A stretch of 34,132 nt of DNA. Origin: an uncultured Bacteroidales bacterium (GTDB taxonomy: Bacteria; Bacteroidota; Bacteroidia; Bacteroidales; FEN-979). Below the pieces are notes generated by a model. The model was given only the letters and a program-made list of their open reading frames with translations, was not told where the DNA came from and did not search any database. How positions within the stretch are numbered: position 1 is the first letter of the stretch; every line of letters starts with the position of its first letter. The translations under genes and the position numbers were made by a program. This document shows positions 5,201-34,132 of this stretch, piece by piece. The stretch lies in the NCBI GenBank assembly GCA_903828645.1, contig CAIKNA010000060.1:1-34132 (forward strand), read 5' to 3'.

Positions 5201-8200
5201 GCTGGTGGCATTGTCGGTTACTGCACCATGCACAACCATCGTAAAATTCTGCATGTCGAGAACGTTGCCGGCATGCAGGTTCAGGGTGCCTGCAAGTTCT
5301 ATTAAACTCGGATAACTGTTTATGTAAAAATTGCCGGATGTTTTGTTCACATCAACATTGCCAAACACCGATCCGGGGCCGTCAACCTGGATACCGGTAT
5401 TGTTGCTGCCGGTAAAGTAGATTGTGTTGCCTGTTCCCCCATCGATGATGGCTGCGCCGGATGACCATACCCATGAAGCCGGGTAGATTGCCCCGGCGGT
5501 AAGGGTGCTGCTCGATCCGTCATGAAATTCCAGATGTTGCCAGGATGTTGTTCCGACATATAGTTTATCGGCAGCATTGTTCATCACCAGTGAGCCATAA
5601 ACATGGCAATAGGTGTTTGCGTTTGTCTGGTGCCCGTTCAGTGTGTATTTTCCTGTCTGAATCGTCAAGGTGCCATTAACAATAATGTCGGATCCAGCAC
5701 TCACGCCATTTGACAGCGGACTTTTAGACAAATTCCCCTGTCGGTCGTAAAATACTTCTTCATAATTTTGCATGGACTTGCTAACCACGGCAGCTTTGTT
5801 AATCACCAGGTTGGCAAAACTGCTCCCGGTTCCAAGGCTTACCTGGATATCAGTTGGTCCGTACAGTTCAACGGTGCCGCCGGATGGGGTAAAATCAGTC
5901 CGTGATCCTGAAAAATATCCATTTGTCCTGATCGTGCCACCCGAAATACTTTGAGTAAGTGTAAACGTACTAGGATTGAGATAAATCCCGTTATTCCTGA
6001 AATCCAGGATTCCGCCAGTCATTTCGATGAGGCCATTGCTTAAATATGGCCAATAACTTTGGCCATATCCTCCGGTAACTGTCATGGTTCCTCCATACAT
6101 GTGGATTTCGCCGTCCAGGTCGGTATATTGCCCGCCGTCCTGCGTAAGGTTTATAGCGCCCCCGGCGTTCACCCAATAGGTGCCATAAAGCCCGTTGTCG
6201 GCCAGGTCGAGCGCATTAAAAGTGCCGGCAAGAATATCGATGCCCCCGGTAGTCCAGTCGTACACGTTGCAGGTAACAGTATATGCCGCATTATTTAAAC
6301 GCAGGGCTGCCCCCATGTTTGCTTCGAGGACGTTGAAGGTTTCACTGCCATAAATATATTGATGGCCGGGGCCGTTAAAAACTACTCGTCCTGGTCCTGC
6401 AGAAAATCCTGTTACACCGGCCGATTCAGTCCAGTTCCCGGCTAATTTAATTACCCCGGCAGCATTGGTCATCTGAAGGCTTGCACCTGCATTGATATTC
6501 ACATTGCCATTTACCGTCAATGTTTTCTCAATGACCTGCAAAGTTCCACCTGACTGGATGGTAAGATTTTTACAGGGGTCATCATAAATTGAAAGCCAAA
6601 CTGGCTGATAACCTGCGTTGGTGATATATGCATCTTCAATTGCCGTGGGAATGTGTCCCAGCGACCAGTTTTGATCATTATGCCAATACTGGTTGAAGGT
6701 GCCTGTCCAATAATTTGGCAGAGGGGAGGTAACGTTGATGGTGTAATCTTCCACCTCGCCATATTGTGTGGCCCCGCAGGGATCAACGGATCCTGTATAA
6801 GTTATCCGGACTCTCATGGTCTTTGGCCCCAATGTTGTTCCGTAAGGAGGTGCAATCGTGGCTGTTAACGAACCACCTGTGGAGATGGTTTCACCGGCAT
6901 CTGCAAAATCACCGTCATTGTTCCAATCCACCCAGATGCCGCATTGATCGCCAATATATGGAGTTCCATTGATGACTGTTATTGCAGCAGATGAATTGAC
7001 CGGAATATTTGTAGACAGATTTGTGAAATTCTGATACCCATCACATGCAGAACTATTGTTGATGCTTCCCACACTGACGTTGGAGATGTATTCATCACAC
7101 CCGCCGCTTGCAATGCAATATCCACTGTAATGTATGGGTGACACATAGGTAAGGGCCCGCCCTGAACGGTTATCGGTCCAGGTTGGGTAAACCCGGTTGT
7201 TGTTGGCAGTTATGCCGAGGTAATCGCCAAAATAGCCAGTGGCAAGGCCGGGAATAGGAGATGGGGTAAAGGAGACATCGCCGACCCTGATATCTGTCCA
7301 GCTAGCGCCTCCGTTTTCGGAGTAGGCCATCCAGGTCTCCACTGCTGTGCTGGCACTTCCAAGGTTGCGGTCGTCGTAGAAAACGCAGTAAAGCTTTCCA
7401 GTAGACTGATCGCAGGTGATCCAAGGCATATATGAGGCGTAATCGTTGGCAGATGTGCCCTGATTTACCCTCACCGGGGTACCCCAGGTTGTTCCCCCGT
7501 CGGTTGAACGCATGCAATAGATACTGACATTGGTTCCTGTATTCACTCCCGGCACACCCACATTAGCCCATACAATATAAATATACCCGTTGTATGCTCC
7601 TCCGCTTACGTCGACCGCCATCGACGGGAAGGAATTTACCCTCATGTTTTTACCTGTGGCGTTGGTCGTCGGAGTATTGGAGTTAGGCCTGATTCCGTGG
7701 ATATTGTTGTTAATCCTGACGGGTGCAGTAAAAGATGCCCCGCCATTTGTCGACCTGGCAAATCCAATAGCATTTTCAAAATAGGTGGGCCCCCATACAT
7801 CATAAATTACCCAGGTGGCATAAACCTGCCCGTTGGGCCCAGTCTGGAGGTTCACGCCATGGTTGAACGCACCGGCAGAAACACCATTGCTGATATTTAC
7901 CGGTGTCGAAAACGACGCCCCGTTGTTTATACTTCTTGAAAACACAATGTCGTTGTTGTCGGTACTACCGCTGACAAACTGTGTCCATGCAGAGTAAATG
8001 TGTCCATTATAAAGTGAAAAAATGTCATTATCGACCACCAGGTGATTTTTATCCAGTAAGTCATTAGCCCCGGTCCCGTTGTTGGCCAACAAAACACTTG
8101 TCCAGGATGTCCCGTCGTCGGAGTGTGCGACCGACTGACCACCGGCTGAATTGATGAAACCGACAAATTGTCTTCCGTTCAGGTTGATGGCGGTTGAGGG

Positions 8201-8653
8201 ATCACCATCATTTGCCCCGCCGGCACCAAATTTGCTTCCTGTCCAGGTTTGGCCGTCGTCCGTGGAATTGAAATAATCAGCCCCCAGAAACCCGCTGGCT
8301 GACTTGGAGTTATTTGAATTCAGGAGATGGGCATTGTTGGTCGGGTCAACCGCAACCGAATTCTCGCTCTGGGTTACTCCCGCTTCGTCATCAACAACAA
8401 CATCTGTTGACATCTGGTCGGTAATTCCCATACCTGATTTTGTCGGAATCCCTTGCGCGGGCAATAATGGTACCACGGGATTGTATGGGACCAGCCCTTG
8501 TTTAGCCAGTTTCGTCCAGTATCCTATATTGTCAATCCGCGTATTTATTTGTGGATTTTGAGGCTGGCTTTGATCGGCTGGCACAGCCCTTTGTCCAAAT
8601 CCAAAGGTTGCTGCCAAAAACAGCAATGCTAAAATTGTAGCGATTTTTTTCAT
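2210..8653 (-). CDS. Giant secreted multidomain protein with BNR-like repeats, GEVED domain, beta-helix-like region and T9SS sorting domain
   Basis: The product is 2147 residues from the ATG at 8651-8653, which opens a signal peptide (MKKIATILALLFLAATFGFGQ). Residues of about 90-500 contain BNR/sialidase-type Asp-box repeats (DDGQTWTG, NNGASF, NGGASF, DGGTTW, NGGASW). Residues of about 505-640 form a GEVED-type domain ending YGEVEDYTINV, usual in T9SS surface proteins. Residues of about 645-1790 are rich in short repeated strands such as LTVNGNVNI and GGTLRT, suggesting a long right-handed beta-helix. About 1800-1970 look like PKD/Ig-type domains, and a T9SS type A domain starts near 2070 at IYPNPTTG and ends KLVVAR. 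BNR repeats alone do not show sialidase activity, and I see no catalytic set. The role is probably adhesion or glycan binding at the cell surface. It has its own terminator and appears monocistronic. Confidence 0.85.
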   Translation of the reverse strand: MKKIATILALLFLAATFGFGQRAVPADQSQPQNPQINTRIDNIGYWTKLAKQGLVPYNPVVPLLPAQGIPTKSGMGITDQMSTDVVVDDEAGVTQSENSVAVDPTNNAHLLNSNNSKSASGFLGADYFNSTDDGQTWTGSKFGAGGANDGDPSTAINLNGRQFVGFINSAGGQSVAHSDDGTSWTSVLLANNGTGANDLLDKNHLVVDNDIFSLYNGHIYSAWTQFVSGSTDNNDIVFSRSINNGASFSTPVNISNGVSAGAFNHGVNLQTGPNGQVYATWVIYDVWGPTYFENAIGFARSTNGGASFTAPVRINNNIHGIRPNSNTPTTNATGKNMRVNSFPSMAVDVSGGAYNGYIYIVWANVGVPGVNTGTNVSIYCMRSTDGGTTWGTPVRVNQGTSANDYASYMPWITCDQSTGKLYCVFYDDRNLGSASTAVETWMAYSENGGASWTDIRVGDVSFTPSPIPGLATGYFGDYLGITANNNRVYPTWTDNRSGRALTYVSPIHYSGYCIASGGCDEYISNVSVGSINNSSACDGYQNFTNLSTNIPVNSSAAITVINGTPYIGDQCGIWVDWNNDGDFADAGETISTGGSLTATIAPPYGTTLGPKTMRVRITYTGSVDPCGATQYGEVEDYTINVTSPLPNYWTGTFNQYWHNDQNWSLGHIPTAIEDAYITNAGYQPVWLSIYDDPCKNLTIQSGGTLQVIEKTLTVNGNVNINAGASLQMTNAAGVIKLAGNWTESAGVTGFSAGPGRVVFNGPGHQYIYGSETFNVLEANMGAALRLNNAAYTVTCNVYDWTTGGIDILAGTFNALDLADNGLYGTYWVNAGGAINLTQDGGQYTDLDGEIHMYGGTMTVTGGYGQSYWPYLSNGLIEMTGGILDFRNNGIYLNPSTFTLTQSISGGTIRTNGYFSGSRTDFTPSGGTVELYGPTDIQVSLGTGSSFANLVINKAAVVSKSMQNYEEVFYDRQGNLSKSPLSNGVSAGSDIIVNGTLTIQTGKYTLNGHQTNANTYCHVYGSLVMNNAADKLYVGTTSWQHLEFHDGSSSTLTAGAIYPASWVWSSGAAIIDGGTGNTIYFTGSNNTGIQVDGPGSVFGNVDVNKTSGNFYINSYPSLIELAGTLNLHAGNVLDMQNFTMVVHGAVTDNATSTIYLYNGPGKSMNQEKQSASRQPASPNVPASVGSLTIYPDFNLNGLLDIADGNVLVHGRFSSSSTSAIHINGGSFIADSPNHSDKGWEYINGNITMPAGLFELTHNSINLGVSATTAVSGGTLRTGGAFYASNTGTFLPTGGVVEVTENLPDGAIYCGNGNFFYNFLLNKPSGAASYFETDVVVKNNFTIQSGVLGTFSNINVGGNWSNLVGPSGFLPGTGTVTFDGAAAASILTGETFYNLSLNKTYAAFDALQLMQNVNVTNDLHIIDGSMKLVSPANLNITGNLTIDLNAGLNASDGYGPQIFVGKNWTNANTTYSTNYGFMPGNYSQVIFNGSADQFLTTNCAQEAFNNLRIDKSAGKFRPNNNVLCYGELLINTGTWEDNVTGTLHHKFYGNFTVQPAGGFLNAFPLNTVEFTGSQNSILTYSSALGYFHHLLINKTTGFSVTQVGSTSCQFGGNLTVQGGTYNLNSNTLSVFGDVAVNGILSLPASSTFIMSDTKNLNVNSGGRLDISGTAVNPVMIRANLPTAKFGFNVYSGGTIAADYATFRDMGVNGVVLNAGSVLDLAHAFKGCTFQDGASGGTLLAINNSQIMTIRNAVFPTNTWGGASNVTKVPNTGHVYFVDYSGAFSGEAFDADSWNLVDWVATLTAAPTASPALICPGTSSQLNITRTGGLAPFTYLWSPATGLSNATIINPLATPLATTTYNVTVTDFLGTTATGNVLLSVNPVQPVSVTIAASSNPVPPSTFVTFTATPVNGGSLPSYQWKVNGINAGSGLSTFSYVPSNNDHVACVLTSNTLCPSGNPATSNVILMVVVATNTSVTGSVPSPLTLCFDASNVVTVAGGGNTFLVQSGASATMIAGVSISYLYGTTVAPGGYMHGYITSTNQYCGYLPPAIMSVVAGEDVHSEIVSASSLFSIYPNPTTGIFTLQVKGDVPTGNIQVEIFDMRGNALLSTSYASERSHKLTLSDFSPGLYFVKVIAGSHVESLKLVVAR

Positions 8654-9170
8654 ACGAATAGAGGTTTTGGTGAATTTTAAATAACATCTGTTGCTCATAA
8701 ACCCACTTCCGGATCAAAACAGAAAGAATATCTTTCCGCATGTGGGGAGTAGTGATAGGGTAAATTACAAAACTTCAACATACCCATGCAAAAGTATGTA
8801 ATCCATAAATCAATGTTAATCCCTTTCGGACGTGATATGGCGTGATAGAAGCCGATATTTTTCCTGTTTACGAAGGAAAAAAAACTTATTTTTAATTGAT
8901 ATAAATCAATATAAGAAATGCCTTCCGAAGTATTTCAAGATGTTGTTCCTGTAAAATGTTGGAATCAAAAAAGTTAACTGATAGGACACATACCTGGTTC
9001 ATTTTCGGTGATAATGGATCATTCATTCGGATAAATTCGGGATCAGCGAGCCCTGGTTCGGTTTCCGGCAGAACCCTGAACAAATGATCGGGGAAAATGT
9101 AAATTTCTTCCCGGAAATCAAAAAAAAAAACTGAATTTTGTATCCTAAAACAAATCCAAAATTATCTGCC
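8654..9170. other. Divergent intergenic region (517 bp), no gene seen
   Basis: This spacer separates the minus-strand giant T9SS gene from the plus-strand hydro-lyase gene. A minus-strand TACTTTTG (8796-8789) matches the -7 consensus, but the nearest TTG is only 14 nt away, below the usual 17-23 nt. On the plus side TGAATTTTG (about 9132-9140) is a weak match. An A-run of about eleven bases lies at 9120-9130. No RNA gene or strong hairpin was recognised. Confidence 0.5.
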
Positions 9171-12310: not shown

Positions 12311-15300
12311 TCAGTGGTTTATCGCCCTGGAAACCTGGATAAAGGAAACCTCCACATCCCCCCCCTGAGGGTAAAGGCTGATCCAGTTATTATCTTCACG
12401 CGACCATAAATCCTGGTCTTTGACACTGACCAACCGCTCGTTCACCTTGCCATCGTTATTGAGGTTGCGCATGACTACCCCGCCATTGGCCTGTTTGTCT
12501 TTGCCATACCTCATCAACACATTGAATGGTTTTTTGGAGAGGTTTTTGATCTTTATGTACACAAAATTGTTCTTCCTTGAAGCAAAAAGCACCGGTGGAA
12601 AAGGGAACTGCTTTTCGGTATTGGAAGCAATGACCACCGTTGTTTTCAACACATCTGCAATGGCATTCTCGACAATTGCCTTGTGGATTTTCACGATCAT
12701 CTCCCGGGGGTATTTCTCCATCGGCAGGAGATTCGCCGCATCGGTATATGCGTCTACCGCTTTGTCATATTCAAATGAATTATAAAAACGGTCCCCTTCA
12801 GCAACGGACTGGTCATACCTGGATTTGTTGGCACGGTATAAACTATCGACTCTCGCCGTGATGATGGATATTTGTCCCTTTGGATAGGACTGGGCGGGAA
12901 AAACAACAAGTGCCTGCTGATAGGTATCTTTTGCTTTTGCATAGTCTTTGTCCTTAAAGGAGTTGTCGGCATCGGCAACCAGGTTTTCATAATATTTCTG
13001 TTTGCCCAACTGTTCCTCCAGTGACTTGTTTATCCCTGCGATTTTCTCTTTTGGGTAGGTTGCCTGGGGCTTCATTGCCAGAGCATCCTGGTATGAAGTA
13101 CGGGCCTCTTCAAGTTTTTTCTGCTCAAGCAGCTGGTCGGCTGCTGCCAATGCGGCTTTGTAGGCGTCCTCCTTCGCCTTCAGTTCCGCGAGTACACCCT
13201 CTATCTCTGCGATCTTATCCTTTGGATATTGCTCTGAAGGCTTCAGGCCGGAGGCATTCGTGTACTCCTGTTTTGCAGGATCATACGATTTGGCTGCCAG
13301 CAGTTGGTCGGCTTTTGCAACAGATGCCTTATACTGGTCATCAAGCGTTTTCTGCCTGGCGATGGCAGCAAAGATGTCGTTTATCTCGATGATTTTGTCT
13401 TTTGGGTATTGCGCATCCGGTTTGATCTTCCCTGCTTCGAGATAGGCAATTTTAGCCTGGTCATAGGTTTTGGCCTGCATCAATTTGTCCGCACCCGCAA
13501 CAGCGGCGGCAAACTGCTCGTCGATGGCCTTGAGGCGGGCAACATCAGCAAGTGCCTTCTCAATCTCTGCCAGTTTTGTTTTGGGATACTGCTCGGCAGG
13601 TTTCAATCCGGCAGCCTTTTGATATTCCGACTTCGCCTGTTCATATGATTTTTCAGCGATGAGTTTATCAGCACCGGCAATGGTTTCCGAATATTCTTCC
13701 TCAAGCGCTTTTTGCCTGGCAATTGCAGCCAGGGCGGCATCGATCTCGGCAATTTTTGTTTTGGGATATTGTTCAGCAGGCTTCAGACCTGAGGCTTTCA
13801 GATATTCACTTTTAGCAGGGTCGAAAGTTTTTGCCGCAAGTAGTTGATCAGCCTTTGCGATGGATGTTTTATAGTTCTCATCCAGCGTTTTCAATGCAAC
13901 GAGATCTGCAAGGATTTTGTCGATTTCTGCAATTTTATTTTTCGGGTAATTTTCGGCAGGTTTGGTGTTGGCAGCATTTTGATATTCAACCCTGGCCTGT
14001 TCGTATGTTTTCGCTACCAGGAGTTTGTCTGCATTTGCAATAATGCCGGCGTATTTATCATCCAGTGCCTTTGCCGAAGCCAGATCGGAAAGGATCTTGT
14101 CGATCTCACTGATTTTTTCTTTGGGATAACCCTCCTGTGGTTTCAAAGATGAGGCATTCACATATTCATTCCTGGCAGGGGTGTACGATTTCTGGGTCAG
14201 CAGTTTATCGGCGTTGGCAATTGATGCCGCATATTTTTCATCACGATCCCTGATGCTTGCCAGTTCGGCTAGTGCCTTGTCGATCCCCGCTATTTTATCT
14301 TTGGGATACTGTTCCGATGGTTTTATTTTCAGTGCAGCCTGGTATTGGCCTTTCGACAGTTCATACGATTTATCAGCCAGTAATTTATCTGCATTCACGA
14401 TGGTTGATGCATATTCATCATCGAGGGCTTTTTGTCTGGCAATACTTTCAAGGATTGCATTGATTTCTGTAATTTTAGTAATGGGGTACCTTTCGGCAGG
14501 TTTCAGACCGGAAGCATTGGTATATTCACTTTTTGCAACATCGTAATTTTTGCCGGCGAGGTACTTGTCAGCGTTTGCAATGGCAGCCAGGTAGTTTTCA
14601 TCAAGGGACTTTGCCGCAGCGATCCCTGCAAGAATTTTATCGATGTCCGAAATTTTATCTTTCGGGTAGGTCTCTCCCGGTTTAATATTACCGGCGTTCT
14701 GGTATTCAACCCTCGCCTGTTCGTAGGTTTTTGCGGCCAGCAGTTTATCTGCCCCTGCAACCACGCTGGCATATTTGTCATCCAGGGCTTTCGCAGCTGC
14801 AAGATCTTCCAGTATTTTGTCAATCGAGGCAATCTTTTCCTTCGGGTAGGTTTCCTGCGGTTTTAGCGTGGAGGCATTCAGGTATTCAGTTCTCGCTACG
14901 ACATATGATTTGTCGGCCAACATTTTGTCTGCTTTGGCAATTGAACCTGAATACTGGGCTTCCAGTGACTTCAGCTTCTCTATCCCTGCCAGTATCTGGT
15001 TTATTTCACCGATTTTTCCTTTGGGATAATCCTCCGCCGGTTTGAGTTTCAGGGCGGCCTGGTACCCGGTCAGGGCAGGCTCGTACGACTTGTCGGCAAG
15101 CAGCTTGTCAGCCTGTGAAATGGTTGCGGCATACTCCTCTTCTGCGGCTTTTTGTTTGGCAAGTGAGGCCAGGATTGCGTCTATTTCAGCTGTTTTTGCC
15201 TTTGGATATTGCTCCTGCGGCTTTAACCGGGAGGCATTTGCATATTCGGTTTTAGCAGGTTCGTAGTTTTTTTCTGCGAAATATTTGTCCGCCTTTACAA

Positions 15301-17437
15301 TGGTTGCCTGGTAATTTTCATCAAGGCTTTTTGTGGCGGCAATGTCTGCCAGTATTTTATCAATACCTGCAATCTTATCCCTGGGATAAAGCTCGTCAGG
15401 CTTTATAGCACCTGCATTCTGGTATTCGGTACGTGCCTGATCCCAGGTTTTTGACGCCAGCAGTTTGTCGGCAGTTACAATAGCTGATGCATACCTGTCA
15501 TCAAGGGCTTTTTGAGCTGCCAGGCCGGCAAGTAGTTTGTCGATTTCGGAAATTTTATCCTTGGGATATGACTCCTGAGGTTTCAGGGCCGATGCATTCC
15601 CGTATTCAATCTTTGCAGGGGAATAGGATTTGTCGGCCAGCAGTTTGTCCGCTTTGGCAATCAATGCGATATACTGGCTTTCCTGTGATTTCTGTTTCTC
15701 TAGGTTGGCCAGGATGAGGTTGATTTCGCTGATTTTGTTTTTGGGATAAACCTCGGCAGGTTTCATGTCGGAGGCCTTCTGGAATTCTGTTTTTGCAGGC
15801 TGATATGCTTTCGCCAGCAGCATGCTGTCGGCTTTACCGATCGAATTTGCATACCTTGCATCAGCTGCTTTTTGCTGGGATTCAGCCGCCATCAGTTTCT
15901 CAAGTTCTGCAATTTTTGATTTGGGATAAACTTCATTTGCCTTGATGGTCAATGCATGCTGATATTCAGACCGGGCGCTTTCATAGGATTTGCTTGCAAA
16001 GGCCTTGTCGCCTGCTGAAACCGCAAGTTTGTACTGTTCCTCCTTATCCTTCGTTGCGTTCGCCAGGATATTGTCAATTTCAAGGATCTTATCTTTTGGA
16101 TATTGTTCGGTGGGCTTCAGATTTGAAGCTTTGACATATTCAGATCTCGCGGGTTCATATGACTTGTCAACCATCAATTTGTCAGCGCCGGCAAGGGTGG
16201 CTGCATATTGTTCTTCAAGCGCTTTTGCCATGGCTGCTTCCTGGCCGGTCAGCATCTTATCAGCCTTGGAAATCATCTCTTTCGGATAAGCTTCCCCGGG
16301 CTTTGCCGATAATGCCATCTGGTAGTTCTCCCTGGCCTTGAAATATTTTTTGTCGATGTAAAAACTATCTGCGAGGTTGACATACTTGTCATAATCTGCC
16401 TGGGCATTGGTTATCCGGGCCAGGATGCTTTCAATCTCCCTGATTTTATCCCTGGGATAGGTCTGCTCAGGTTTTATTACGATCGCCTCTTTATATGATT
16501 TGACTGCATCGGGATACTGAACGGCTTTGAACGACTGGTCGGCTAATGCAATGGCTTTATTGTATGCATCATCTCTGGCTTTCTGGGCAGCAAGCAAAGC
16601 GGTCACCTCCTTTATCCGGTCCTGGACATATTTCTCATCAGGTTTAATTCCGGCCGCCTTGTTATAATCAAGCAATGCATCCTGGTAGTTTTTGACAAGA
16701 AGGAATTTATCCGCCAGTGCGACAGCTTTACCATATTCCTCTTCTTTTACCTTGGTATCCACCTGGATCTTGATGATCTCATTGATCTTGTTTTTAGGGT
16801 AGGGATCTCCCGGTAAAAGCCTGCTTGCATTTTCATATTCCTGCATGGCTTTTTCATAATCACCCGCCTGAAACAATTTATCCGCACTTGCCACGGCCAC
16901 ATCAAACAGGATGTTCTGTGCTTTCTGGGAACGTAATAAATCAAGGGTTTTGCGAAGTTTTTCCCGGGCAGCGTCATCATTGGGGTTTTGAGAAACGGCC
17001 AGCTGGTAGGATGCTTTTGCATTAAGGTAATCCTTTGATTTAAAATAGGCGTCACCCGAAGCAATTGACTTCTGACTTGCATCTGCCTGTTCCTTTTGAG
17101 AGGCGACGAGCGCATTCAAACTGGTGATTCTTTCTTTCAGTGACTGGTCCTGGGGTTTTATCTGTTGGGCCTTTTGCAATTCCGCAAGGCTTTTTCCATA
17201 GTTCTTTTCATTGTAAAACTTATCGGCAGCATTCAGAAATACGTGATAGAGTGAATCCTGGGGGTTTGACTTTTTAACAGGAATGGTATCATAGGCAGAG
17301 GAGTGTGTTATGGGCGAGAAATGTTGCGCGGGCTCGTACGGCAGGGTCAGATAGGTAACAAACAGGGCAATCGTGACTGATGAAACCAGCACTGCTGCAA
17401 CAATTGGAAAGGATTTTTTTAAACCGTTTATTTTCAT
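12311..17437 (-). CDS. Giant single-pass membrane protein with 26 TPR-like repeats and a C-terminal beta-rich domain
   Basis: The product is 1708 residues. One N-terminal membrane segment (about residues 10-32) has no clear cleavage site, so the rest is probably periplasmic and anchored in the inner membrane. From about residue 68 I count 26 units of about 60 residues with the pattern ADKLL-x2-K-x-Y-x2-A-x2-EY-x2-A-x2-KP-x2-YPK-x-KI-x-EI. The two-helix spacing resembles TPR repeats with a long connecting helix. Sixteen consecutive units keep an exact 180-bp DNA period, and units 10-21 form a 720-bp higher-order repeat. The last 113 residues or so are not repetitive and look like a beta-sandwich (FPFPP, NNFVYIKIKN, NWISLYPQGG); I do not recognise this domain. 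It follows lolD on the same strand after 79 bp, hinting at an envelope role. A scaffold or spacer across the periplasm is an inference. Confidence 0.85.
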   Translation of the reverse strand: MKINGLKKSFPIVAAVLVSSVTIALFVTYLTLPYEPAQHFSPITHSSAYDTIPVKKSNPQDSLYHVFLNAADKFYNEKNYGKSLAELQKAQQIKPQDQSLKERITSLNALVASQKEQADASQKSIASGDAYFKSKDYLNAKASYQLAVSQNPNDDAAREKLRKTLDLLRSQKAQNILFDVAVASADKLFQAGDYEKAMQEYENASRLLPGDPYPKNKINEIIKIQVDTKVKEEEYGKAVALADKFLLVKNYQDALLDYNKAAGIKPDEKYVQDRIKEVTALLAAQKARDDAYNKAIALADQSFKAVQYPDAVKSYKEAIVIKPEQTYPRDKIREIESILARITNAQADYDKYVNLADSFYIDKKYFKARENYQMALSAKPGEAYPKEMISKADKMLTGQEAAMAKALEEQYAATLAGADKLMVDKSYEPARSEYVKASNLKPTEQYPKDKILEIDNILANATKDKEEQYKLAVSAGDKAFASKSYESARSEYQHALTIKANEVYPKSKIAELEKLMAAESQQKAADARYANSIGKADSMLLAKAYQPAKTEFQKASDMKPAEVYPKNKISEINLILANLEKQKSQESQYIALIAKADKLLADKSYSPAKIEYGNASALKPQESYPKDKISEIDKLLAGLAAQKALDDRYASAIVTADKLLASKTWDQARTEYQNAGAIKPDELYPRDKIAGIDKILADIAATKSLDENYQATIVKADKYFAEKNYEPAKTEYANASRLKPQEQYPKAKTAEIDAILASLAKQKAAEEEYAATISQADKLLADKSYEPALTGYQAALKLKPAEDYPKGKIGEINQILAGIEKLKSLEAQYSGSIAKADKMLADKSYVVARTEYLNASTLKPQETYPKEKIASIDKILEDLAAAKALDDKYASVVAGADKLLAAKTYEQARVEYQNAGNIKPGETYPKDKISDIDKILAGIAAAKSLDENYLAAIANADKYLAGKNYDVAKSEYTNASGLKPAERYPITKITEINAILESIARQKALDDEYASTIVNADKLLADKSYELSKGQYQAALKIKPSEQYPKDKIAGIDKALAELASIRDRDEKYAASIANADKLLTQKSYTPARNEYVNASSLKPQEGYPKEKISEIDKILSDLASAKALDDKYAGIIANADKLLVAKTYEQARVEYQNAANTKPAENYPKNKIAEIDKILADLVALKTLDENYKTSIAKADQLLAAKTFDPAKSEYLKASGLKPAEQYPKTKIAEIDAALAAIARQKALEEEYSETIAGADKLIAEKSYEQAKSEYQKAAGLKPAEQYPKTKLAEIEKALADVARLKAIDEQFAAAVAGADKLMQAKTYDQAKIAYLEAGKIKPDAQYPKDKIIEINDIFAAIARQKTLDDQYKASVAKADQLLAAKSYDPAKQEYTNASGLKPSEQYPKDKIAEIEGVLAELKAKEDAYKAALAAADQLLEQKKLEEARTSYQDALAMKPQATYPKEKIAGINKSLEEQLGKQKYYENLVADADNSFKDKDYAKAKDTYQQALVVFPAQSYPKGQISIITARVDSLYRANKSRYDQSVAEGDRFYNSFEYDKAVDAYTDAANLLPMEKYPREMIVKIHKAIVENAIADVLKTTVVIASNTEKQFPFPPVLFASRKNNFVYIKIKNLSKKPFNVLMRYGKDKQANGGVVMRNLNNDGKVNERLVSVKDQDLWSREDNNWISLYPQGGDVEVSFIQVSRAINH
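13501..15660 (-). repeat. Higher-order repeat: three 720-bp blocks of four 180-bp TPR-like units
   Basis: Within the giant TPR gene, units 10-13, 14-17 and 18-21 match type by type. For example ALDD(R/K)YA follows the first unit of each block, SLDENY or TLDENY follows the second, and the third and fourth units share their own variants (YQAALK in two of the three fourth units). Corresponding DNA lies exactly 720 bp apart, as at 14101, 14821 and 15541. Copies have diverged substantially, so the duplication is not recent. Confidence 0.75.
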
Positions 17438-26142: not shown

Positions 26143-27684
26143 ATGGGAATTCTGATACTAATCATCATTGGGGTGGCAGGGGTCATCCTTGGAGGTGTCA
26201 TCACGGGCACTATATTAAACAGGGCACTGGAGCGTAAACGGGATGCACTCTTAAAAGATGCAATGGAAAAAGCAGAAGTTGCTAAAAAGGAGAAGATCCT
26301 GCAGGCAAAAGAAAAATTCATGCAGTTGAAAAGCGAACATGAAAAATTCATCCATGAAAAAAACGATGAACTTGGCCGCAACGAGAACCGGTTTAAACAG
26401 AAAGAAGGAACGCTGAACCTGAAAGTTGAAGAGTATGCAAAAAAGCAGAAGGAGGTCGTTACCATCAAGCAAAATCTTGCCCAGCAACTGGAAATCATCA
26501 GCAAAAAGCAGGCAGATCTAGACAAAGCGATGAAAATCCAGGTAGAAAAGCTTGAAGCTATTTCATCTCTTTCTGCCGTTGAAGCGAAAGCACAACTCAT
26601 AGAGACCCTCAAAGAGGAGGCGAAGACGGAGGCAATCGTTTATATGAAAGACATCATTGACGAGGCAAAACTCTCCGCAAACACTGAAGCGAAAAAAATC
26701 ATCATTGAAACTATCCAGCGAACCGCCTCCGAGCACGCCATAGAAAATACCGTTTCCGTTTTCAACATTGAAAGTGAAGAGATCAAAGGCAGGATCATCG
26801 GCCGTGAAGGACGGAATATCCGCACCCTTGAATCGCTTACTGGCGTGGAAATCATCATTGACGACTCTCCTGACGCCATTATCCTTTCGGGATTTGACCC
26901 GGTGCGCCGTGAAATTGCACGGCTGGCATTGCACAAACTGGTTACCGACGGGCGTATTCACCCTGCCCGCATTGAAGAGGTTGTGGCCAAGACGAAAAAG
27001 CAGATTGAACAGGAAATCATTGAAACCGGCAAGCGGATCAGCATCGACCTGGGTATTCATAACATGCACCACGAACTTGTCAGGATGATCGGCAAAATGA
27101 AGTACCGGTCCTCATACGGGCAGAACCTGTTGCAGCATTCCATTGAAGTTTCGAAGTTATGTGCCACAATGGCAGCTGAACTGGGATTGAATCCAAAAAT
27201 GGCGAAACGTGCAGGATTATTGCATGATATCGGGAAAGTGCCCGATACAGAGCCTGAATTGCCACACGCAATACTTGGCATGAAACTGGCAGAGAAGTTC
27301 AAGGAAAAGGCGGAAATTATCAATGCCATCGGGGCGCATCATGATGAAGTGGAAATGAACAACCTTATTTCACCGATTGTCCAGGTTTGCGATGCCATTT
27401 CAGGTGCCCGCCCGGGAGCACGCCGTGAAGTTGTCGAAGCATACATCGAACGGTTAAAGCACCTGGAGGAGTTGGCGCTTAGTTATCCCGGAGTGGTGAA
27501 AACGTATGCGATCCAGGCCGGGCGCGAACTTCGCGTAATTGTTGGTGCCGATAAAGTAAATGATGTTGAAGCCAACCAGATTTCATTCGATCTTTCCAAG
27601 AGGATCCAGAGTGAGATGACCTACCCCGGACAGATTAAAATTACCGTAATCCGCGAGACCAGGGCAGTAAGTTATGCGAAATAG
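26143..27684 (+). CDS. rny: Ribonuclease Y
   Basis: The product is 513 residues from the ATG at 26143, which places the membrane anchor (about 2-22, [17 protein letters not shown]) at the N-terminus as in the family; an in-frame ATG at 26101 would put a charged extension before the anchor and translate the leader hairpin. A long coiled coil (about 30-180) follows, then a KH domain with [10 protein letters not shown] (about 216-225) and an HD domain with His361-Asp362 (LLHDIGK) and AHHDE. RNase Y is a membrane-bound endoribonuclease that starts mRNA decay. It lies directly after the candidate 6S RNA and its T-run and so probably has its own promoter. No clear terminator follows. Confidence 0.95.
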
Positions 27685-27898
27685 GGTCTTTCGGGTTCCC
27701 AGCAGGCGGGCTCAGGAGTGCGGGCAAACCTCCAGCCTGCTTATTTGAACGGGCTATATAGAGCTGTGGTTGGGCATGTAAGGGTGAATCCAGAAGCAGA
27801 GACATGTGTGCCAGGTAAATGTGGATAATTATAACTGCCAGTTTATTGGCGTGAATGAAAAAAGAATTTTGAAATCCGTATTCGTACACATTTTTTAC

Positions 27899-27906
27899 TA
27901 CCTTTG
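27899..27906 (+). promoter_or_regulatory. -7 box of tRNA-Pro
   Basis: TACCTTTG matches TAnnTTTG and lies 36 nt before the tRNA 5' end, a sensible distance. The nearest upstream TTG is 27 nt away, longer than the usual 17-23 nt, so the -33 element is uncertain. Confidence 0.5.
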
Positions 27907-27942
27907 TCGCTCGTTCTTCACATTTCGTTTTATTAATGTTTA

Positions 27943-28020
27943 CGGGGTATAGCGTAGCACGGTTATCGCGCCTGCTTTGGGAGCAGGAGGTCGCAAGTTC
28001 GAATCTTGCTACCCCGACCA
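27943..28020 (+). tRNA. tRNA-Pro (anticodon TGG)
   Basis: A 7-bp acceptor stem (CGGGGTA with TACCCCG), an anticodon arm CCTGC-TTTGGGA-GCAGG giving TGG, and a T-arm with GTTCGAATC are all present. The discriminator is A at 28017 and the CCA end (28018-28020) is encoded. The DNA that follows differs in content from the core region, so the 3' end of this tRNA is the likely attachment site of the element to its right. Confidence 0.95.
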
Positions 28021-28028
28021 GTAAAATC

Positions 28029-28065
28029 AAGGGTTTCAGAAAATAAAAATCTGAAACCCTTTTTT
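28029..28065 (+). terminator. Terminator of tRNA-Pro
   Basis: AAGGGTTTCAGA (28029-28040) pairs fully with TCTGAAACCCTT (28050-28061) around a 9-nt A-rich loop, and the stem is followed by a T-run to 28065. It lies 8 nt after the tRNA. Confidence 0.85.
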
Positions 28066-28086
28066 AATGTAACCCTAAATGTAACC
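28066..28086. repeat. 9-bp direct repeat after the tRNA-Pro terminator
   Basis: AATGTAACC occurs at 28066-28074 and again at 28078-28086, 12 bp apart. Short direct repeats just inside a tRNA-linked element end can be integrase arm-type sites; this function is an inference. Confidence 0.4.
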
Positions 28087-28134
28087 ACAGAAGTTCGGAA
28101 TCAAGGGCTCAGAAACTTTACAATCTTACCAATA

Positions 28135-29133
28135 ATGCAATATCCTCGATTTGCCCTCTGTATCGAATTACTTAATACTCCCATTGAACATCTTTCACCT
28201 GGGCATCCCGAGGAGAATCCCCTGTTGGGCACCGCCGGGGTGATCAGTGAATTTTATATTGAGCTTTTCACCATTGAACTTGAAGAGGAGTTAGAGAGAA
28301 AGCATACGAGGGAGCAAATGGAAAACCTGATTAGGCTGTTTGTATCCAGGTTGATTAAATCCAAAAACCATAGATCAATTAAAGAAATTCTACCTGATAT
28401 AGAAGTCAATGATCCCCCAAAAGAATTAAAAAGCAATCCCAGGAGCAACAGAAACAATGAATGGATATTCGACACGGGTATTCCTATTACCCGAGTTCAT
28501 GAACAACAATTTTCAAGAGGTTGCAATATCCTGTACCACTTAATCTTTGATGAACTGCAAAGGTGCTGTGTCACATTTAAAATCCCATTTCTTCGATTGT
28601 GCGAGGAGTTAAACTTTGACATTGCGACAATTAATGTTGAATATTCCGTAAAAAATGGGCAGAAAGAAATTTCTCCGGAGATTGAGAATTCAAGGGAGGT
28701 AACCATCCAACCCCAAATAACAGTCCTTTCAGATCTCGATATGAAACGTGAGCTTCAGCAAATAAGGAATTCAGAAAATCAATTCTGGAGGGGTTTGTCA
28801 ATGGAATTTGTTATCAACCACTTTAGTGTGTTCACATCAAAAAAAAGCAGAAACGAGAATGTATTCTTAACCAATGAGCAGTTTATTTCATTTTTAAAAA
28901 GGGGTTTTCTAAAGGATACGACACAACCTGTGCAAAAAATAAATTGTTCCAGTCGTGAAAAAGGTATGATCATAAAAACGTTTTATCAGTTTTATGATGT
29001 TGCAGTGGGACAATATGCGTGCCCACATACAAAGGTACATTTTATCAGCCTCTTTACTGACTGTTTTAACAATTGGGATCCAAGTACCGTAAAAGATTTT
29101 TTCAGACCAGGGAAAGTAAATAAACAGTTATAA
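28135..29133 (+). CDS. Protein of unknown function in the tRNA-Pro element
   Basis: The product is 332 residues from the ATG at 28135. The frame is open further upstream, but only by running through the tRNA-Pro terminator. I do not recognise a family with certainty. The N-terminal half has a strongly charged helix (IELEEELERKHTREQMENLI), and the C-terminal part (LTNEQFISFLKRGFL, then MIIKTFYQFYDVAVG and FISLFTDCFNN) resembles proteins often found on Bacteroidota mobile elements; an RteC-like regulator is a weak possibility. It has no signal peptide or membrane segment. The gene is clearly more AT-rich than the core genes to its left, which suggests transfer. It stands where an integrase gene would often lie. 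Confidence 0.65.
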   Translation: MQYPRFALCIELLNTPIEHLSPGHPEENPLLGTAGVISEFYIELFTIELEEELERKHTREQMENLIRLFVSRLIKSKNHRSIKEILPDIEVNDPPKELKSNPRSNRNNEWIFDTGIPITRVHEQQFSRGCNILYHLIFDELQRCCVTFKIPFLRLCEELNFDIATINVEYSVKNGQKEISPEIENSREVTIQPQITVLSDLDMKRELQQIRNSENQFWRGLSMEFVINHFSVFTSKKSRNENVFLTNEQFISFLKRGFLKDTTQPVQKINCSSREKGMIIKTFYQFYDVAVGQYACPHTKVHFISLFTDCFNNWDPSTVKDFFRPGKVNKQL

Positions 29134-29157
29134 TTAATTGTTTTCAACTACTTTATT

Positions 29158-29205
29158 CTTGCCCATCTTGCCCATCTTGCCTATTTTCTTGCCCATCTTG
29201 CCCTT
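29158..29205. repeat. 9-bp direct repeats (CTTGCCCAT-type, five copies)
   Basis: Three exact CTTGCCCAT copies (29158-29166, 29167-29175, 29188-29196) and two one-mismatch copies (29176-29184, 29197-29205) lie in the non-coding gap before the HTH gene. Their spacing is 9 bp except for one 3-bp insertion. They could be operator or iteron sites for the HTH protein or the primase, or a slippage tract. Confidence 0.65.
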
Positions 29206-29270
29206 ACTATAAGCAAGCCACTGACAACCCATTATCATTGCAGCAGGTTTCACATATAAAACTTGTAACA

Positions 29271-29615
29271 ATGGAAATGACCTTTGAAAAATTACCCCAC
29301 GCAGTTGCTGAGTTATCTGATAAGTTGGATCATCTTGAACGACTTATCCTTTCTCAAAGCAATACCACCCAACCTGATGCCGATAAACTCCTTACTATAA
29401 AGGAGACTGCCGAGTTCCTGCACCTTACGGTCCCTACCATATATCTTATGGTTCAGCGGGCTGAAATCCCTGTTTGCAAACGAGGAAAGCGACTCTATTT
29501 TTCGAAATTGGAAATCACCTCCTGGATTATGGCAGGACGAAAAAAAACGACTTTAGAATTAGAGGATAAGGTTAATTCCTTTGTTCATGCATCAAGAAAG
29601 GGGAGGAGCAAGTGA
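29271..29615 (+). CDS. Excisionase-family helix-turn-helix DNA-binding protein
   Basis: The product is 114 residues, starting at the ATG at 29271 rather than an upstream TTG. Residues of about 40-86 form a MerR/Xis-type winged helix (HTH_17): LLTIKETAEFLHLTVPTIY, then VCKRGKRLYFSKLEITSWI. The N-terminal 30 residues look like a short coiled coil. Such proteins act as excisionases or small regulators on Bacteroidota mobile elements. Its stop overlaps the start of the primase gene (GTGA), so both are made from one message. The 9-bp direct repeats upstream are candidate binding sites. Whether it is an excisionase or a replication regulator is open; coupling to the primase favours the latter. Confidence 0.85.
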   Translation: MEMTFEKLPHAVAELSDKLDHLERLILSQSNTTQPDADKLLTIKETAEFLHLTVPTIYLMVQRAEIPVCKRGKRLYFSKLEITSWIMAGRKKTTLELEDKVNSFVHASRKGRSK

Positions 29616-32600
29616 TATCGAACGCAGAAGAAATCAAAGGTGCTGTCCAAATTGCCGATGTCATTGGTGATTTTATCACACTTAAAAAGAAGGGTGTTAA
29701 TTACACAGCCTGTTGCCCGTTTCATCATGAAAAGACACCAAGCTTCATGGTGAATCTCGTTCGCGGTTCATACAAATGTTTCGGATGTGGCAAGTCAGGC
29801 GACGCCATCGAGTTCCTTCGGGAGCATGAGGCAATGAGTTATACCGAAGCACTCACCTATATTGCTGGTAAGTATGGCATCGCCATCACCAGGAATAGCA
29901 ATGATGCAGACTATTCCGATGCACAAAAACGGCGTGATGGAATCTTTGCTGTTCTGACCTGGGCTCAGGAACATTTTTCTGGAAACATTGAGAAAAACAA
30001 GCCAGCCCTGGAATACCTCCAGGAAAGGAAACTCAATAATGCCATTGACCACTTTCAGATTGGTTATGCTGAATCCGGTAATAACCTGCTTAAAGCAGCC
30101 AGACAGGCCGGGTACTCAAATGATATATTGTTGGCTGCCGGTTTGATCAGAAAGAATGAGCAATACCAGTATTATGACTACTTCCAGAAACGGATCATTT
30201 TCCCGTTTTACGATCGTTCAGGTCGGGTGATTGGCTTTACCGGAAGGATTATTACAAATGAAAAGGATAAACAAAAGTACCTGAACAGCCCGGATACTGA
30301 AGTATTCAAAAAGTGCAAGGCTCTTTATGGACTATTCCAGTCTAAAAAGGAGATCATGAAAGAGAACGATTGCCTGCTGGTGGAAGGTCAAACCGACCTG
30401 ATCAGCTGGCACCTGGCCGGGATCAGGAATGTAGTTGCCGGTTCTGGAACTGCACTGAGCGAAGATCAGGTTAGGATGATACAATCTTTCACTAATTGCC
30501 TCACAATTGTATATGATGGCGACCCCGCCGGGATCAGGGCCAGCATCGCTAACCTCAATACACCACTTCAAATGGGGCTTGATGTTTACATTGTTGTATT
30601 GCCGGATGGTGAGGATCCCGATTCTTTTGTGTTAAAGCATGGCGCTGAAACCCTGAAGGCTTTCATCGAAGATAACCGAAAGGATATCGTTTCGTTCCGC
30701 ATCGATATGATTAAGGAGCAGGTGGATCAGGACCCACTGCAAAAAGCAAAGCTGGTCAAAGAACTTGTCTCCCAGATTTCACTCATCGGGGATGAGCAAA
30801 CACGGGGATACCTGACCAGCGACATTGCGAAAAAACTGGATGTGAACCTGGACGATCTCGTGCGGCATGTAAAAAAACAACTTCCCAAAATCAAAAACCA
30901 GGAAAAGGGTTTTTTCGGACTTGATGCCGCAGAAGAGATGATTAAGGACAAAGGCTTTGCTGTTTTGCTACCAGACCCGGGGGGAGTTGTTTCATGTCAT
31001 GCCGAAGGAAACGAAAACACTATAAGTCTGCCGGATGGTCCGGTTAGGAAAGATGATATTTCCCGGCTGGCAAAATTGACAAAAAATGTTAAAATTCAAG
31101 GTCTTAAACTGATCGTTGATGAAAATGATGTTGAATTTCCGCTGGCCGAGGCTGGCCGGCTCCTTACCGAAAATGGGCTGCAGGTTGAAGTCCTTGAAGA
31201 GAATGCCTTTGATACTTTGAGTGAGGATCATGATTCTGTTGTGTATATTGATTTCCTTGATTTTTATGTGGGTGGTTTAGTCATTCCGTTGAAACGACAA
31301 CCCGACACAAAACGTTCCAAGAAGTTTGTGGAGATGGTTGCCGAGTTTCTGTCCAAACTTGATAACACCATTATCCATATCAAGACCAATTGGATTGCCA
31401 AACAATTCGACCTCACTCAGTCCGCATTTTCAAAAATATTGCGCCCTTATGTTGAGAAGTGCAAGAACCTGGCCGTTCAGAGGCAGGAACAAGTTGTTAT
31501 TGATGATCAACAATTTGTCTTCGATATAGGGCACATTCCATCATATGTTAACCAGGCTTTTTTTCAAAGGTATGGTTTCTTCGCAGCGCAAAATAAAAGC
31601 GGGAACAAGATATTCTATGTGTTCCGCACACTCGAAAATACCCTGGTGAAGGTTGGGAATTTCTTCATGGAACCTTTGTTTCAGGTGTATGATCCTGATC
31701 CTGTAAAGAATAAAAGGGTTGTAAAGCTTATTCATTCAGAACTTAATAAAGAGGAGTATGTTGAGTTCAAGAGTACTGATATGGTTGAATTGCAACAGTT
31801 CAAGAAATTTCTTTGGAATAACGGAGGTTATATTTTTACAAATGGCAAACCTTTTCATCATGAGAAGATACTTGAAAGCATTGCACTGCAATTCCCCAAG
31901 TGCTGGGAATTTTCAACATTCGGATGGCAACCTGAGGGTTTCTTTGCATTTGCAAATGGCATTATTGCTGGTAATTCTTTTACTGAGGTGGATGAACTCG
32001 GATTGGTGACATTTAGAAACGTAACCTACTACTCTCCTGCATTTAGTACTATATATAAGGATCAGCGGTCTGACAATGACAGATACGAGTATGATCGGTT
32101 TTTGGTTTACAAGCCTGAACAACGAACCTCATGGGCAGAGTGGTCTACACTGATGAACAATGTCTACAAATATAATGGTAATGGCATGTGGGCACTTCTT
32201 TTCGCCATTTTATCCGCTCACAGAAGTGTTATTTTTCCGATCGAACGTTTTTTTACATCATTGTTTTTCATAGGTCCTACCGAATCCGGCAAGTCAAGGA
32301 TAGCCGAAAGTATCCGGGCTCCATTCATGTATGGTGCTCCACTGTTTAACCTTAATTCGGGCACCGATGCCGCGTTCTTCACGAGTCTCGAACGATTTCG
32401 TGACATCCCGATAATATATGATGAATATAACGATTACCAGATATCCGATGTGAAGTTCCAGGGATTAAAGGCAGCCGTGTATGACAATGAAGGGAAGCAG
32501 AAACGCAAGGATGCAACCAGCAAGGATATTGATGTATCTAAAATTAATGGCAGTCCGATCCTGCTTGGCCAGGAAGGTCCTGAACGTGATGATGGGGCAT

Positions 32601-33451
32601 TGGGTAACCGTGTCGTTCAGAAACACGTTCCGAAAAAAGATGACTGGACCGAAGAGGAGGTTGCAATGTATATAGATTTAAAGGACCGTCAGCGTGACGG
32701 ATTAAGCAATATCGCCATGGAAATTATCAACTTAAGGCCTATTGTGAAAAAGTATTTTGCTACGTACATGCGTGAATCTCAAAAGCAGGTAAAGATAGAT
32801 ATTGAGAAAGAAGGTGGCGCTTATCAAACTCGCCTCATCAATACCGTTAGCATTTTTATTGCATTGGTTAAAATGATGGAAGTTCATGTGAAGGATCTTC
32901 CGCTTCCTTTCACTTTTGATACATTTTATGAAGATGCTAAACGACAAATCCTTCGCCAAAGCGAAGAATTGAGCACCAGCAACCGGTTATCCGTGTTTTT
33001 CAATACCATCAGCATGTTGTATGCACAGGGACAAATCATAAGCGGACGGGAATTCGATATTTCCACGGAATCTCAGGTGACCATCACCGTGTCAAAAACG
33101 GAAAGATCCGAAGTTCCAATGGATGGGGGATCAGCACCGGTGTTATTCCTTATATTGAACGACACGGCTCACATCTGCCAGAAAATGCACAATTCTGAAA
33201 GTTTAAAGATTAACGCACTGCGGATGTACCTCAAAGACCACCCCGCCTATATTGGCCAGGTTAACAGTCACCGATTTATATACCAGGTAGAATCATGGGA
33301 AGCAGATCCTGTAACTGGTATTAACCGTAAAATCGTCACCAAAGCAGATCGGGTTACAAGTTGCGTTGCGCTTAAATACAAATTGATTGAGGCCATGGGA
33401 ATCGATCTTCAGCGGTTTAAACCCACTGAGCCAGATGAACCGCCGTTCTGA
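29612..33451 (+). CDS. Element-encoded DnaG-like primase fused to a P-loop ATPase/helicase-like domain
   Basis: The product is 1279 residues. The GTG start overlaps the stop of the HTH gene and has a strong GGGGAGG ribosome-binding site just upstream. A CHC2 zinc finger (Cys35, His38, Cys56, Cys59) opens a DnaG-type primase with a Toprim domain: Glu258 in VEGQTD and Asp302/Asp304 in YDGDPAG. Residues of about 430-860 are not recognised. A P-loop NTPase follows, with Walker A GPTESGKS (888-895), acidic Walker B IIYDEYND (Asp937-Glu938) and a later GALGNR stretch that may hold an arginine finger. This order resembles replication proteins of phages, satellites and plasmids that combine primase and helicase in one chain. 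Genomic DnaG is about 600 residues and has no such ATPase, so this is an element replicase. It lies directly before an iteron-like array. Confidence 0.88.
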   Translation: MISNAEEIKGAVQIADVIGDFITLKKKGVNYTACCPFHHEKTPSFMVNLVRGSYKCFGCGKSGDAIEFLREHEAMSYTEALTYIAGKYGIAITRNSNDADYSDAQKRRDGIFAVLTWAQEHFSGNIEKNKPALEYLQERKLNNAIDHFQIGYAESGNNLLKAARQAGYSNDILLAAGLIRKNEQYQYYDYFQKRIIFPFYDRSGRVIGFTGRIITNEKDKQKYLNSPDTEVFKKCKALYGLFQSKKEIMKENDCLLVEGQTDLISWHLAGIRNVVAGSGTALSEDQVRMIQSFTNCLTIVYDGDPAGIRASIANLNTPLQMGLDVYIVVLPDGEDPDSFVLKHGAETLKAFIEDNRKDIVSFRIDMIKEQVDQDPLQKAKLVKELVSQISLIGDEQTRGYLTSDIAKKLDVNLDDLVRHVKKQLPKIKNQEKGFFGLDAAEEMIKDKGFAVLLPDPGGVVSCHAEGNENTISLPDGPVRKDDISRLAKLTKNVKIQGLKLIVDENDVEFPLAEAGRLLTENGLQVEVLEENAFDTLSEDHDSVVYIDFLDFYVGGLVIPLKRQPDTKRSKKFVEMVAEFLSKLDNTIIHIKTNWIAKQFDLTQSAFSKILRPYVEKCKNLAVQRQEQVVIDDQQFVFDIGHIPSYVNQAFFQRYGFFAAQNKSGNKIFYVFRTLENTLVKVGNFFMEPLFQVYDPDPVKNKRVVKLIHSELNKEEYVEFKSTDMVELQQFKKFLWNNGGYIFTNGKPFHHEKILESIALQFPKCWEFSTFGWQPEGFFAFANGIIAGNSFTEVDELGLVTFRNVTYYSPAFSTIYKDQRSDNDRYEYDRFLVYKPEQRTSWAEWSTLMNNVYKYNGNGMWALLFAILSAHRSVIFPIERFFTSLFFIGPTESGKSRIAESIRAPFMYGAPLFNLNSGTDAAFFTSLERFRDIPIIYDEYNDYQISDVKFQGLKAAVYDNEGKQKRKDATSKDIDVSKINGSPILLGQEGPERDDGALGNRVVQKHVPKKDDWTEEEVAMYIDLKDRQRDGLSNIAMEIINLRPIVKKYFATYMRESQKQVKIDIEKEGGAYQTRLINTVSIFIALVKMMEVHVKDLPLPFTFDTFYEDAKRQILRQSEELSTSNRLSVFFNTISMLYAQGQIISGREFDISTESQVTITVSKTERSEVPMDGGSAPVLFLILNDTAHICQKMHNSESLKINALRMYLKDHPAYIGQVNSHRFIYQVESWEADPVTGINRKIVTKADRVTSCVALKYKLIEAMGIDLQRFKPTEPDEPPF

Positions 33452-33485
33452 AAGTTCACACGGAAATTCCTGCCGGGAAAGTTGC

Positions 33486-33749
33486 GCCCTACAGCCCTAC
33501 AGCCCTACAAATACAATATTAATCTATTATTATATTATTTATCAGTATGTTATGTTTTATGATTCTTGTAGGGCTGTTGATTTTTTGTAGGGATTTGAAG
33601 GGATTATGGTGAAGCCACATTTTTTTGGGTCCGTAGGGCTGGAAAAACCGCCCTACGGAATTTTGGGAAGATCCTGCAAACATTTGATATTCATTATCAG
33701 AGTTTTATTGCTTTTCAAATGCTTTTGTAGGGCTGTAGGGCTGTAGGGA
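33486..33749. repeat. Iteron-like inverted arrays of GCCCTACA/TGTAGGGC, candidate replication origin
   Basis: Ten copies of an 8-bp word lie within 264 bp of non-coding DNA after the primase gene. Three tandem GCCCTACA (33486-33509) face three tandem TGTAGGGC/A (33726-33749), forming 24-bp inverted arrays with one mismatch. Between them are TGTAGGGC (33567), TGTAGGGA (33586) and a hairpin CCGTAGGGC/GCCCTACGG (33631-33658). An AT-rich segment (about 33510-33566) follows the first array. Iterons beside an AT-rich region and a replication gene are the usual layout of a plasmid- or satellite-type origin. An operator array is the alternative. The whole gap 33452-33806 contains no gene. Confidence 0.6.
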
Positions 33750-33806
33750 TTAAAAAATGATGCTTCCCTATACTGAATAATTATTTGAACACTAATCGAA
33801 TTAGCC

Positions 33807-33875
33807 ATGGGGGATTATGATCAAGCTATTAATTTACAACTATTCAATTTTAATCATAAATATAACGACGGATGA
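33807..33875 (+). CDS. Possible 22-residue leader peptide
   Basis: A short frame from the ATG at 33807 ends in TGA overlapping the ATG of the next gene (ATGA, 33872-33875). The overlap suggests translational coupling, and the next gene's GACGG site lies inside this frame. No clear ribosome-binding site precedes it, and a frame this short may be chance. Confidence 0.25.
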   Translation: MGDYDQAINLQLFNFNHKYNDG

Positions 33876-34132
33876 ATACTTATAAACTTCAAGAAAATAC
33901 GCTCTATGAGCGTCTTCGCCTCCATTATTTGGAAGAGTATGAAATTACCGCAGCAGATGCCAAGATATTGGAGCGATGGGAAGCCGCCCATGCTCTTGTA
34001 CTTGCAGAGAAAGAAACAGATCACAACGTAGTAAAAATCCTGATGAAGCGGTTTAGTATTTCAAATGTATGTGCATATAATGATATCAGAAATTCCAAAC
34101 ACTTTTTTGGAGATGTACGCTCTTCAAATAAA
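33872..34132 (+). CDS. Small helical HTH-like protein, possibly small terminase-like, cut by the window end
   Basis: At least 87 residues are encoded from the ATG at 33872 (GACGG upstream), with no stop before the window ends. The sequence is helical with ITAADAKILERWEAAHALV followed by a basic helix-turn-helix-like part (ILMKRFSISNVCAYNDIR) and FFGD. The W-E-x-A-H/Y-A-L pattern and the later helix recall small DNA-binding proteins that resemble phage terminase small subunits on Bacteroidota elements. This is family resemblance by eye only. If right, packaging genes should follow outside the window. Confidence 0.6.
   Translation, partial: MNTYKLQENTLYERLRLHYLEEYEITAADAKILERWEAAHALVLAEKETDHNVVKILMKRFSISNVCAYNDIRNSKHFFGDVRSSNK

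Follow-up and report, generated by a model that had tools for sequence, protein, structure and literature searches.

Near the right-hand end of a 34,132-base stretch of DNA from an uncultured Bacteroidales bacterium (the window; the assembly it belongs to is 5.1 Mb), a dense cluster of 8-bp repeats, or iterons, lies at 33486-33749, downstream of a gene encoding a fused primase and helicase. The locus raises the question of what these repeats do, and which protein reads them. An initial annotation, made from the letters alone, had proposed a candidate replication origin, an interpretation that the layout of the repeats and their conservation in relatives support. Our confidence is high, though short of complete, that an integrated phage-related element has its origin of replication at 33486-33749.

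Iteron arrays and the layout of the locus

The exact word GCCCTACA occurs six times in the window, always inside 33486-33741, against a mean of 0.65 in shuffled sequence, and none of 100 shuffles reached six. Four further copies, each with one mismatch, read TCCCTACA (at 33586 and 33742) or GCCCTACG (at 33632 and 33650). Of the 15 occurrences of the core CCCTAC in the window, 10 fall within the 264 bp of 33486-33749, while the largest such cluster in a 264-bp span was 3 across 200 first-order Markov simulations; the non-random clustering claimed initially is therefore real. Three copies run forward (33486-33509) and three backward (33726-33749), with three backward copies and one forward copy between them, and the last backward and the single forward inner copy can pair as a 10-bp stem. 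Positions 33487-33511 and 33724-33748 make up a perfect 25-nt inverted repeat with a 212-nt spacer. The two facing triple arrays and four inner copies were thus correctly described, but the copies are not identical, since the outermost of the second array is TCCCTACA and only 33567-33574 is exact among the inner ones.

The gene stops at 33451, and the arrays do follow the primase-ATPase gene directly, as had been stated. The AT-rich segment reported between the arrays is also there: the GC content of 33512-33566, just after the forward array, is 14.5%, and the 50 bp from 33510 form the least stable duplex of all 34,082 such stretches in the window. Short repeats are clustered beside an initiator-like gene, together with an AT-rich unwinding region. 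Sites resembling those of integration host factor (IHF) were called with its consensus, slightly relaxed to WATCARNNNNTTR. The features of the origin are as follows.

33486-33509, plus strand: forward iteron array, three copies of GCCCTACA
33510-33559, no strand: proposed unwinding element, the 50 bp with the lowest duplex stability in the window
33540-33552, plus strand: IHF-like site TATCAGTATGTTA
33567-33574, minus strand: single iteron GCCCTACA
33586-33593, minus strand: single iteron TCCCTACA, with a degenerate copy next to it at 33596-33603 (by eye)
33630-33659, no strand: inverted iteron pair (33632-33639 minus, 33650-33657 plus), 10-bp stem and 10-nt loop
33695-33707, plus strand: second IHF-like site TATCAGAGTTTTA
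33726-33749, minus strand: reverse iteron array, two copies of GCCCTACA and one of TCCCTACA

In a scan of the window (900-bp segments, step 300), inverted triple arrays scoring at least 25 of 30 appeared only at 33486-33749. When two mismatches at most were tolerated, the doubled word GCCCTACAGCCCTACA matched the assembly at four places, all of them at the arrays; the same letters read backwards gave six, so chance matches do occur at this tolerance. The iteron word is not a dispersed genome repeat, and the concern raised at the outset that it might be one is refuted.

Conservation in relatives and co-variation with the C-terminal domain

Homologues of the primase-helicase were sought in 149 genomes (E <= 1e-20) and found in 29, the window's own included. 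We examined 20 such regions and two viral contigs, dropping L052-L054, which end inside the gene. Arrays were visible by eye at the same place in 19 of 20 loci with the window counted, that is, beside the replicase of 18 of the 19 relatives with readable downstream sequence, which was the comparison that the initial annotation had called for. A strict scan (at least 27 of 30) was passed by 16 of the 20, or 15 of the 19 relatives; the cut-off was missed by L036 at 26, by L037, which has two forward copies, at 25 and by L051, with degenerate copies, at 24, and L056 (37% identity) had none. By position and layout, the putative origin lies directly 3' of the gene.

A wider set was drawn from scans that keep the best 80 matches; it held 103 loci with a match, of which 97 were scanned, duplicates kept in. 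Inverted triple arrays scored at least 27 in 40 of the 97, above the best of 1,940 shuffles (26) and of the coding controls (24). With identity measured to whichever of the window, L051 and L055 proteins was nearest, rather than to the window alone, this score was reached in 18 of 23 loci (70% or more), 7 of 16 (50-70%), 1 of 16 (35-50%) and 14 of 42 (below 35%); in the 35-50% band they are thus nearly always missing, changed or elsewhere. Among more distant relatives, L021 (34% identity) and L026 (27%) have inverted triple arrays after the helicase gene; of 15 such loci scanned, 2 score 28 and the rest at most 24.

The IHF-like sites and duplex stability were followed in 18 loci. An IHF-like match lies 80-128 nt after the stop codon in 17 of them (0.058 expected per locus) and a second, before the reverse array, in 13; among 18 further loci, which include duplicates, 6 had any such match.

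The word itself differs between relatives, which were compared in 18 aligned loci (window, L037-L051, L055 and L035; for the IHF-like sites and duplex stability, L036 replaces L055). Most iteron copies stand at a fixed distance from the stop codon, and the words fall into four classes, CCCTAC (6 loci), CCCAAC (2), TCCAAC (6, counting L051, whose mixed copies were placed there by judgement) and G[C/A]CAAC (4). Copies within one locus largely agree and have therefore changed together. The part of the protein that follows the word is small:

29612-33451, plus strand: initiator gene, encoding a fusion of a DnaG-type primase (with zinc ribbon, DNAG_N and Toprim) and a SaPI-Rep/Cch-like helicase
33032-33391, plus strand: C-terminal domain co-varying with the iteron word, codons 1141-1260, most strongly codons 1141-1200 (33032-33211)

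When association with word position 2 was averaged over 60-residue blocks, residues 1141-1200 had the highest mean (0.36; the next was 0.29), and residue 1159, chosen as the best column, separates all 18 loci, with T or I accompanying C, Q or M accompanying T, and R accompanying G. On a quick tree of residues 1141-1260 the word class changes twice, the minimum for three classes, against five times on each of the trees of residues 1-460, 461-1100 and 1-1100; word position 5 changes twice on every tree. L058 and L060 have the words GCCCAACC and ATCCAACA. Their nucleotide identity averages 94% over codons 1-1140, falls to 55-77% over codons 1141-1200 and returns to 87-92% thereafter; across the origin it is again low, at 50-72%, before reaching 85-97% in the 300 bp beyond. 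Across relatives, the iteron word tends to change in step with a small segment of the protein. One genome (G002) carries five complete copies of such an element (L037, L038, L040, L043, L045) with partly different words, two pairs of which share a word class.

The other proteins encoded nearby are poorer candidates for reading the iterons. A helix-turn-helix (HTH) gene of the window's type stands upstream in 1 of 15 relatives (L057) and was not found upstream in the other 14, of which L069 has a different HTH protein and L035 could be searched over 260 bp only; given this rarity, the HTH protein is an unlikely iteron binder. After the origin, L058 and L060 encode nearly the same protein. Together with the co-variation, these observations suggest that it is probably the C-terminal domain of the primase-helicase that reads the iterons.

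Not every locus conforms. The rule at residue 1159 was also applied to nine more loci whose core could be compared; it holds in seven of them, while L036 is mixed and L092 goes against it. The exceptions among the relatives slightly lowered our confidence in origin function, to the level given at the outset.

Proposed mechanism and rival explanations

In the mechanism that we propose, the C-terminal domain of the primase-helicase, probably a winged helix, would bind the 8-bp iterons, and the two oppositely oriented triple arrays would load two helicase rings face to face. Bending at the IHF-like sites, together with the single inner copies, would fold the region, the AT-rich stretch beside the forward array would melt, and the fused DnaG-type primase would make the first primers for extension by the host polymerase.

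It was reasonable to consider that the arrays are instead operators, bound by a repressor or by the primase-helicase itself, which would regulate the genes that come next, and playing no part in starting replication. Some 120 bp separate the reverse array from the next gene (33872), and iteron proteins often autoregulate as well, which counts for this proposal. Operators would not, however, account for the forward array, for the easily unwound stretch or for the IHF-like sites, and the layout is constant even though the gene after the origin varies (terminase-small-subunit-like in L057, another in L058); the rarity of the window-type HTH gene among relatives also speaks against a dedicated repressor. 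We consider operators without an origin improbable.

A packaging site (pac/cos) recognized by terminase is suggested by the terminase-small-subunit-like gene that comes directly next in the window, L057, L069 and L238. In L041, L042, L046, L047 and L049, however, that gene is several kilobases away beside TerL while the arrays are still at the primase, and the iteron word follows the C-terminus of the helicase; such a site is very improbable indeed. Only slightly more credit is due to a single-strand hairpin or RNA element, such as a terminator or priming hairpin, to which the repeats would be incidental. Two iterons do build the stem and loop at 33630-33659, but the L046-L049 group, by eye, keeps the arrays with a disrupted stem, and an Rfam search of 27600-34132 returned the tRNA described below and no other match. 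A replication origin remains the reading that we prefer.

Nature of the element and related systems

The setting of most close relatives is a tailed prophage. Downstream DNA was available for 23 close loci, counting the window. A phage head protease is present in 17, and 16 of these also have a capsid-gene match; those without the protease are the window, L037/L057, L038/L069, L039 (TerS-TerL at once), L051 and L086. The gene order in L057 is HTH, integrase, an unknown protein, an HTH_17-like protein, primase-helicase, origin and a 223-residue protein; that in L069 is similar, with an AbiEii-like pair in addition, and as far as these contigs reach both may follow the order of phage-inducible chromosomal islands (PICIs), which have an integrase, an excision gene, pri-rep-ori and a terminase small subunit but lack capsid genes. 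The 223-residue protein, in its full-length relatives, had no Pfam or PHROG match, and because homologues stand directly before TerL in L035, L072 and contig C177 of the window's genome it is, by position, presumably a terminase small subunit. The right-hand pieces (L239 and L250; 30 kb) of a related element in G018, whose join to the left part is unassembled, had no match to the structural proteins tried. The flanking features in the window are:

27943-28020, plus strand: tRNA-Pro(TGG), probable attachment site, where similarity to a related element begins
29238-29615, plus strand: HTH_17 protein, excisionase-like
33872-34132, plus strand: terminase-small-subunit-like gene (by position beside TerL in relatives), first 87 codons, cut by the contig end

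Two iteron sets flank an AT-rich region after the primase-helicase gene, and the layout, judged from sequence, is of the phage-inducible island type. We favour a phage-inducible-island-like satellite, with initiator, origin and terminase small subunit, as the likely identity of the window element; this is short of certain because the window ends 681 bp after the primase and has no integrase in view within it. On contig C177 (L240 1-7561), homology and position identify genes for protease, capsid, TerS and TerL that make up a prophage module, and this prophage is a possible helper phage, which would induce and package the satellite.

Several side observations concern these elements. The end of contig C288 of the same genome (L248) has the same tRNA-Pro and shares about 125 bp at 94%, beyond which lie, by eye, genes for a PKD-domain-like protein and a type I restriction-like protein; this may be an empty site or another junction. 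A radC-like gene occurs 1.3-2.3 kb after the terminase genes in L069 (12966-13559; by Pfam) and, by eye, in L238 (2629-3225), L239 (1526-2266) and L240 (9815-10555). After the tRNA, 28135-29133 encodes a protein 68% alike in L070 that is RteC-like by eye and matched no family above the cut-off. Just 5' of the HTH_17 gene, at 29158-29205, lies another set of repeats, tandem and TTGCCCATC-like, which could be a regulatory array. The host part of the window has two very large open reading frames on the minus strand, 2210-8698 (2162 codons) and 12311-17437 (1708 codons).

The closest known designs are the Pri-Rep-ori modules of Staphylococcus aureus pathogenicity islands (SaPIs) and other PICIs (SaPIbov1 Rep, PDB 8tch; SaPI5 Pri-Rep), in which an initiator helicase of similar fold likewise has its origin directly downstream, with two iteron sets around an AT-rich stretch. 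Recognition of the origin by the C-terminus is published for that system and is suggested here by co-variation. The primases of SaPIbov1 and SaPI5, however, are of the archaeo-eukaryotic (AEP) family, whereas the one here is of the DnaG/Toprim type, and the present system differs further in its IHF-like sites, its Bacteroidota hosts and its occurrence mostly in tailed prophages. The helicase fold is shared with SaPI Rep and with Cch of the staphylococcal cassette chromosome mec (SCCmec), Cch being the best match (Cch/Cch2; PDB 5dgk). Cch2 has a putative downstream origin whose iterons are bound by its isolated C-terminal domain, but with three 5-nt iterons and a separate primase, in place of about ten 8-bp iterons and a fused primase.

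The alpha protein of phage P4 also unites primase, helicase and origin-binding parts in one polypeptide acting on short iterons, a likeness of general features. Homologous primase-helicases of Porphyromonas gingivalis prophages (e.g. BK068100; about 35-38% identity) and of Cellulophaga phage Ingeline (23%) have iteron-like repeats about 1.5 kb and 2.4 kb downstream, respectively, those of Ingeline seen by eye and unflagged by the scan; neither has repeats directly after the gene or the same strict layout. In BK068100 (L210, 9430-9650) the arrays are of TGTAGGAC type and lie partly within a small annotated gene.

More tentatively, a lineage of temperate phages of Bacteroidota and its capsid-less satellites may share a replicon of the lock-and-key kind, the 8-bp origin word being set by a block some 60 residues long in a fusion of DnaG primase and MCM-like helicase. 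Block and origin would be exchanged naturally, giving private words and several elements per genome, and satellites could share or escape the replication of their helpers. The natural pairs of word and domain, including two near-identical proteins with different words, make initiator-iteron recognition directly testable by binding in vitro, and the occurrence of a SaPI-like design in Bacteroidota tailed prophages, next to a primase from the other evolutionary family, bears on where satellite replicons came from.
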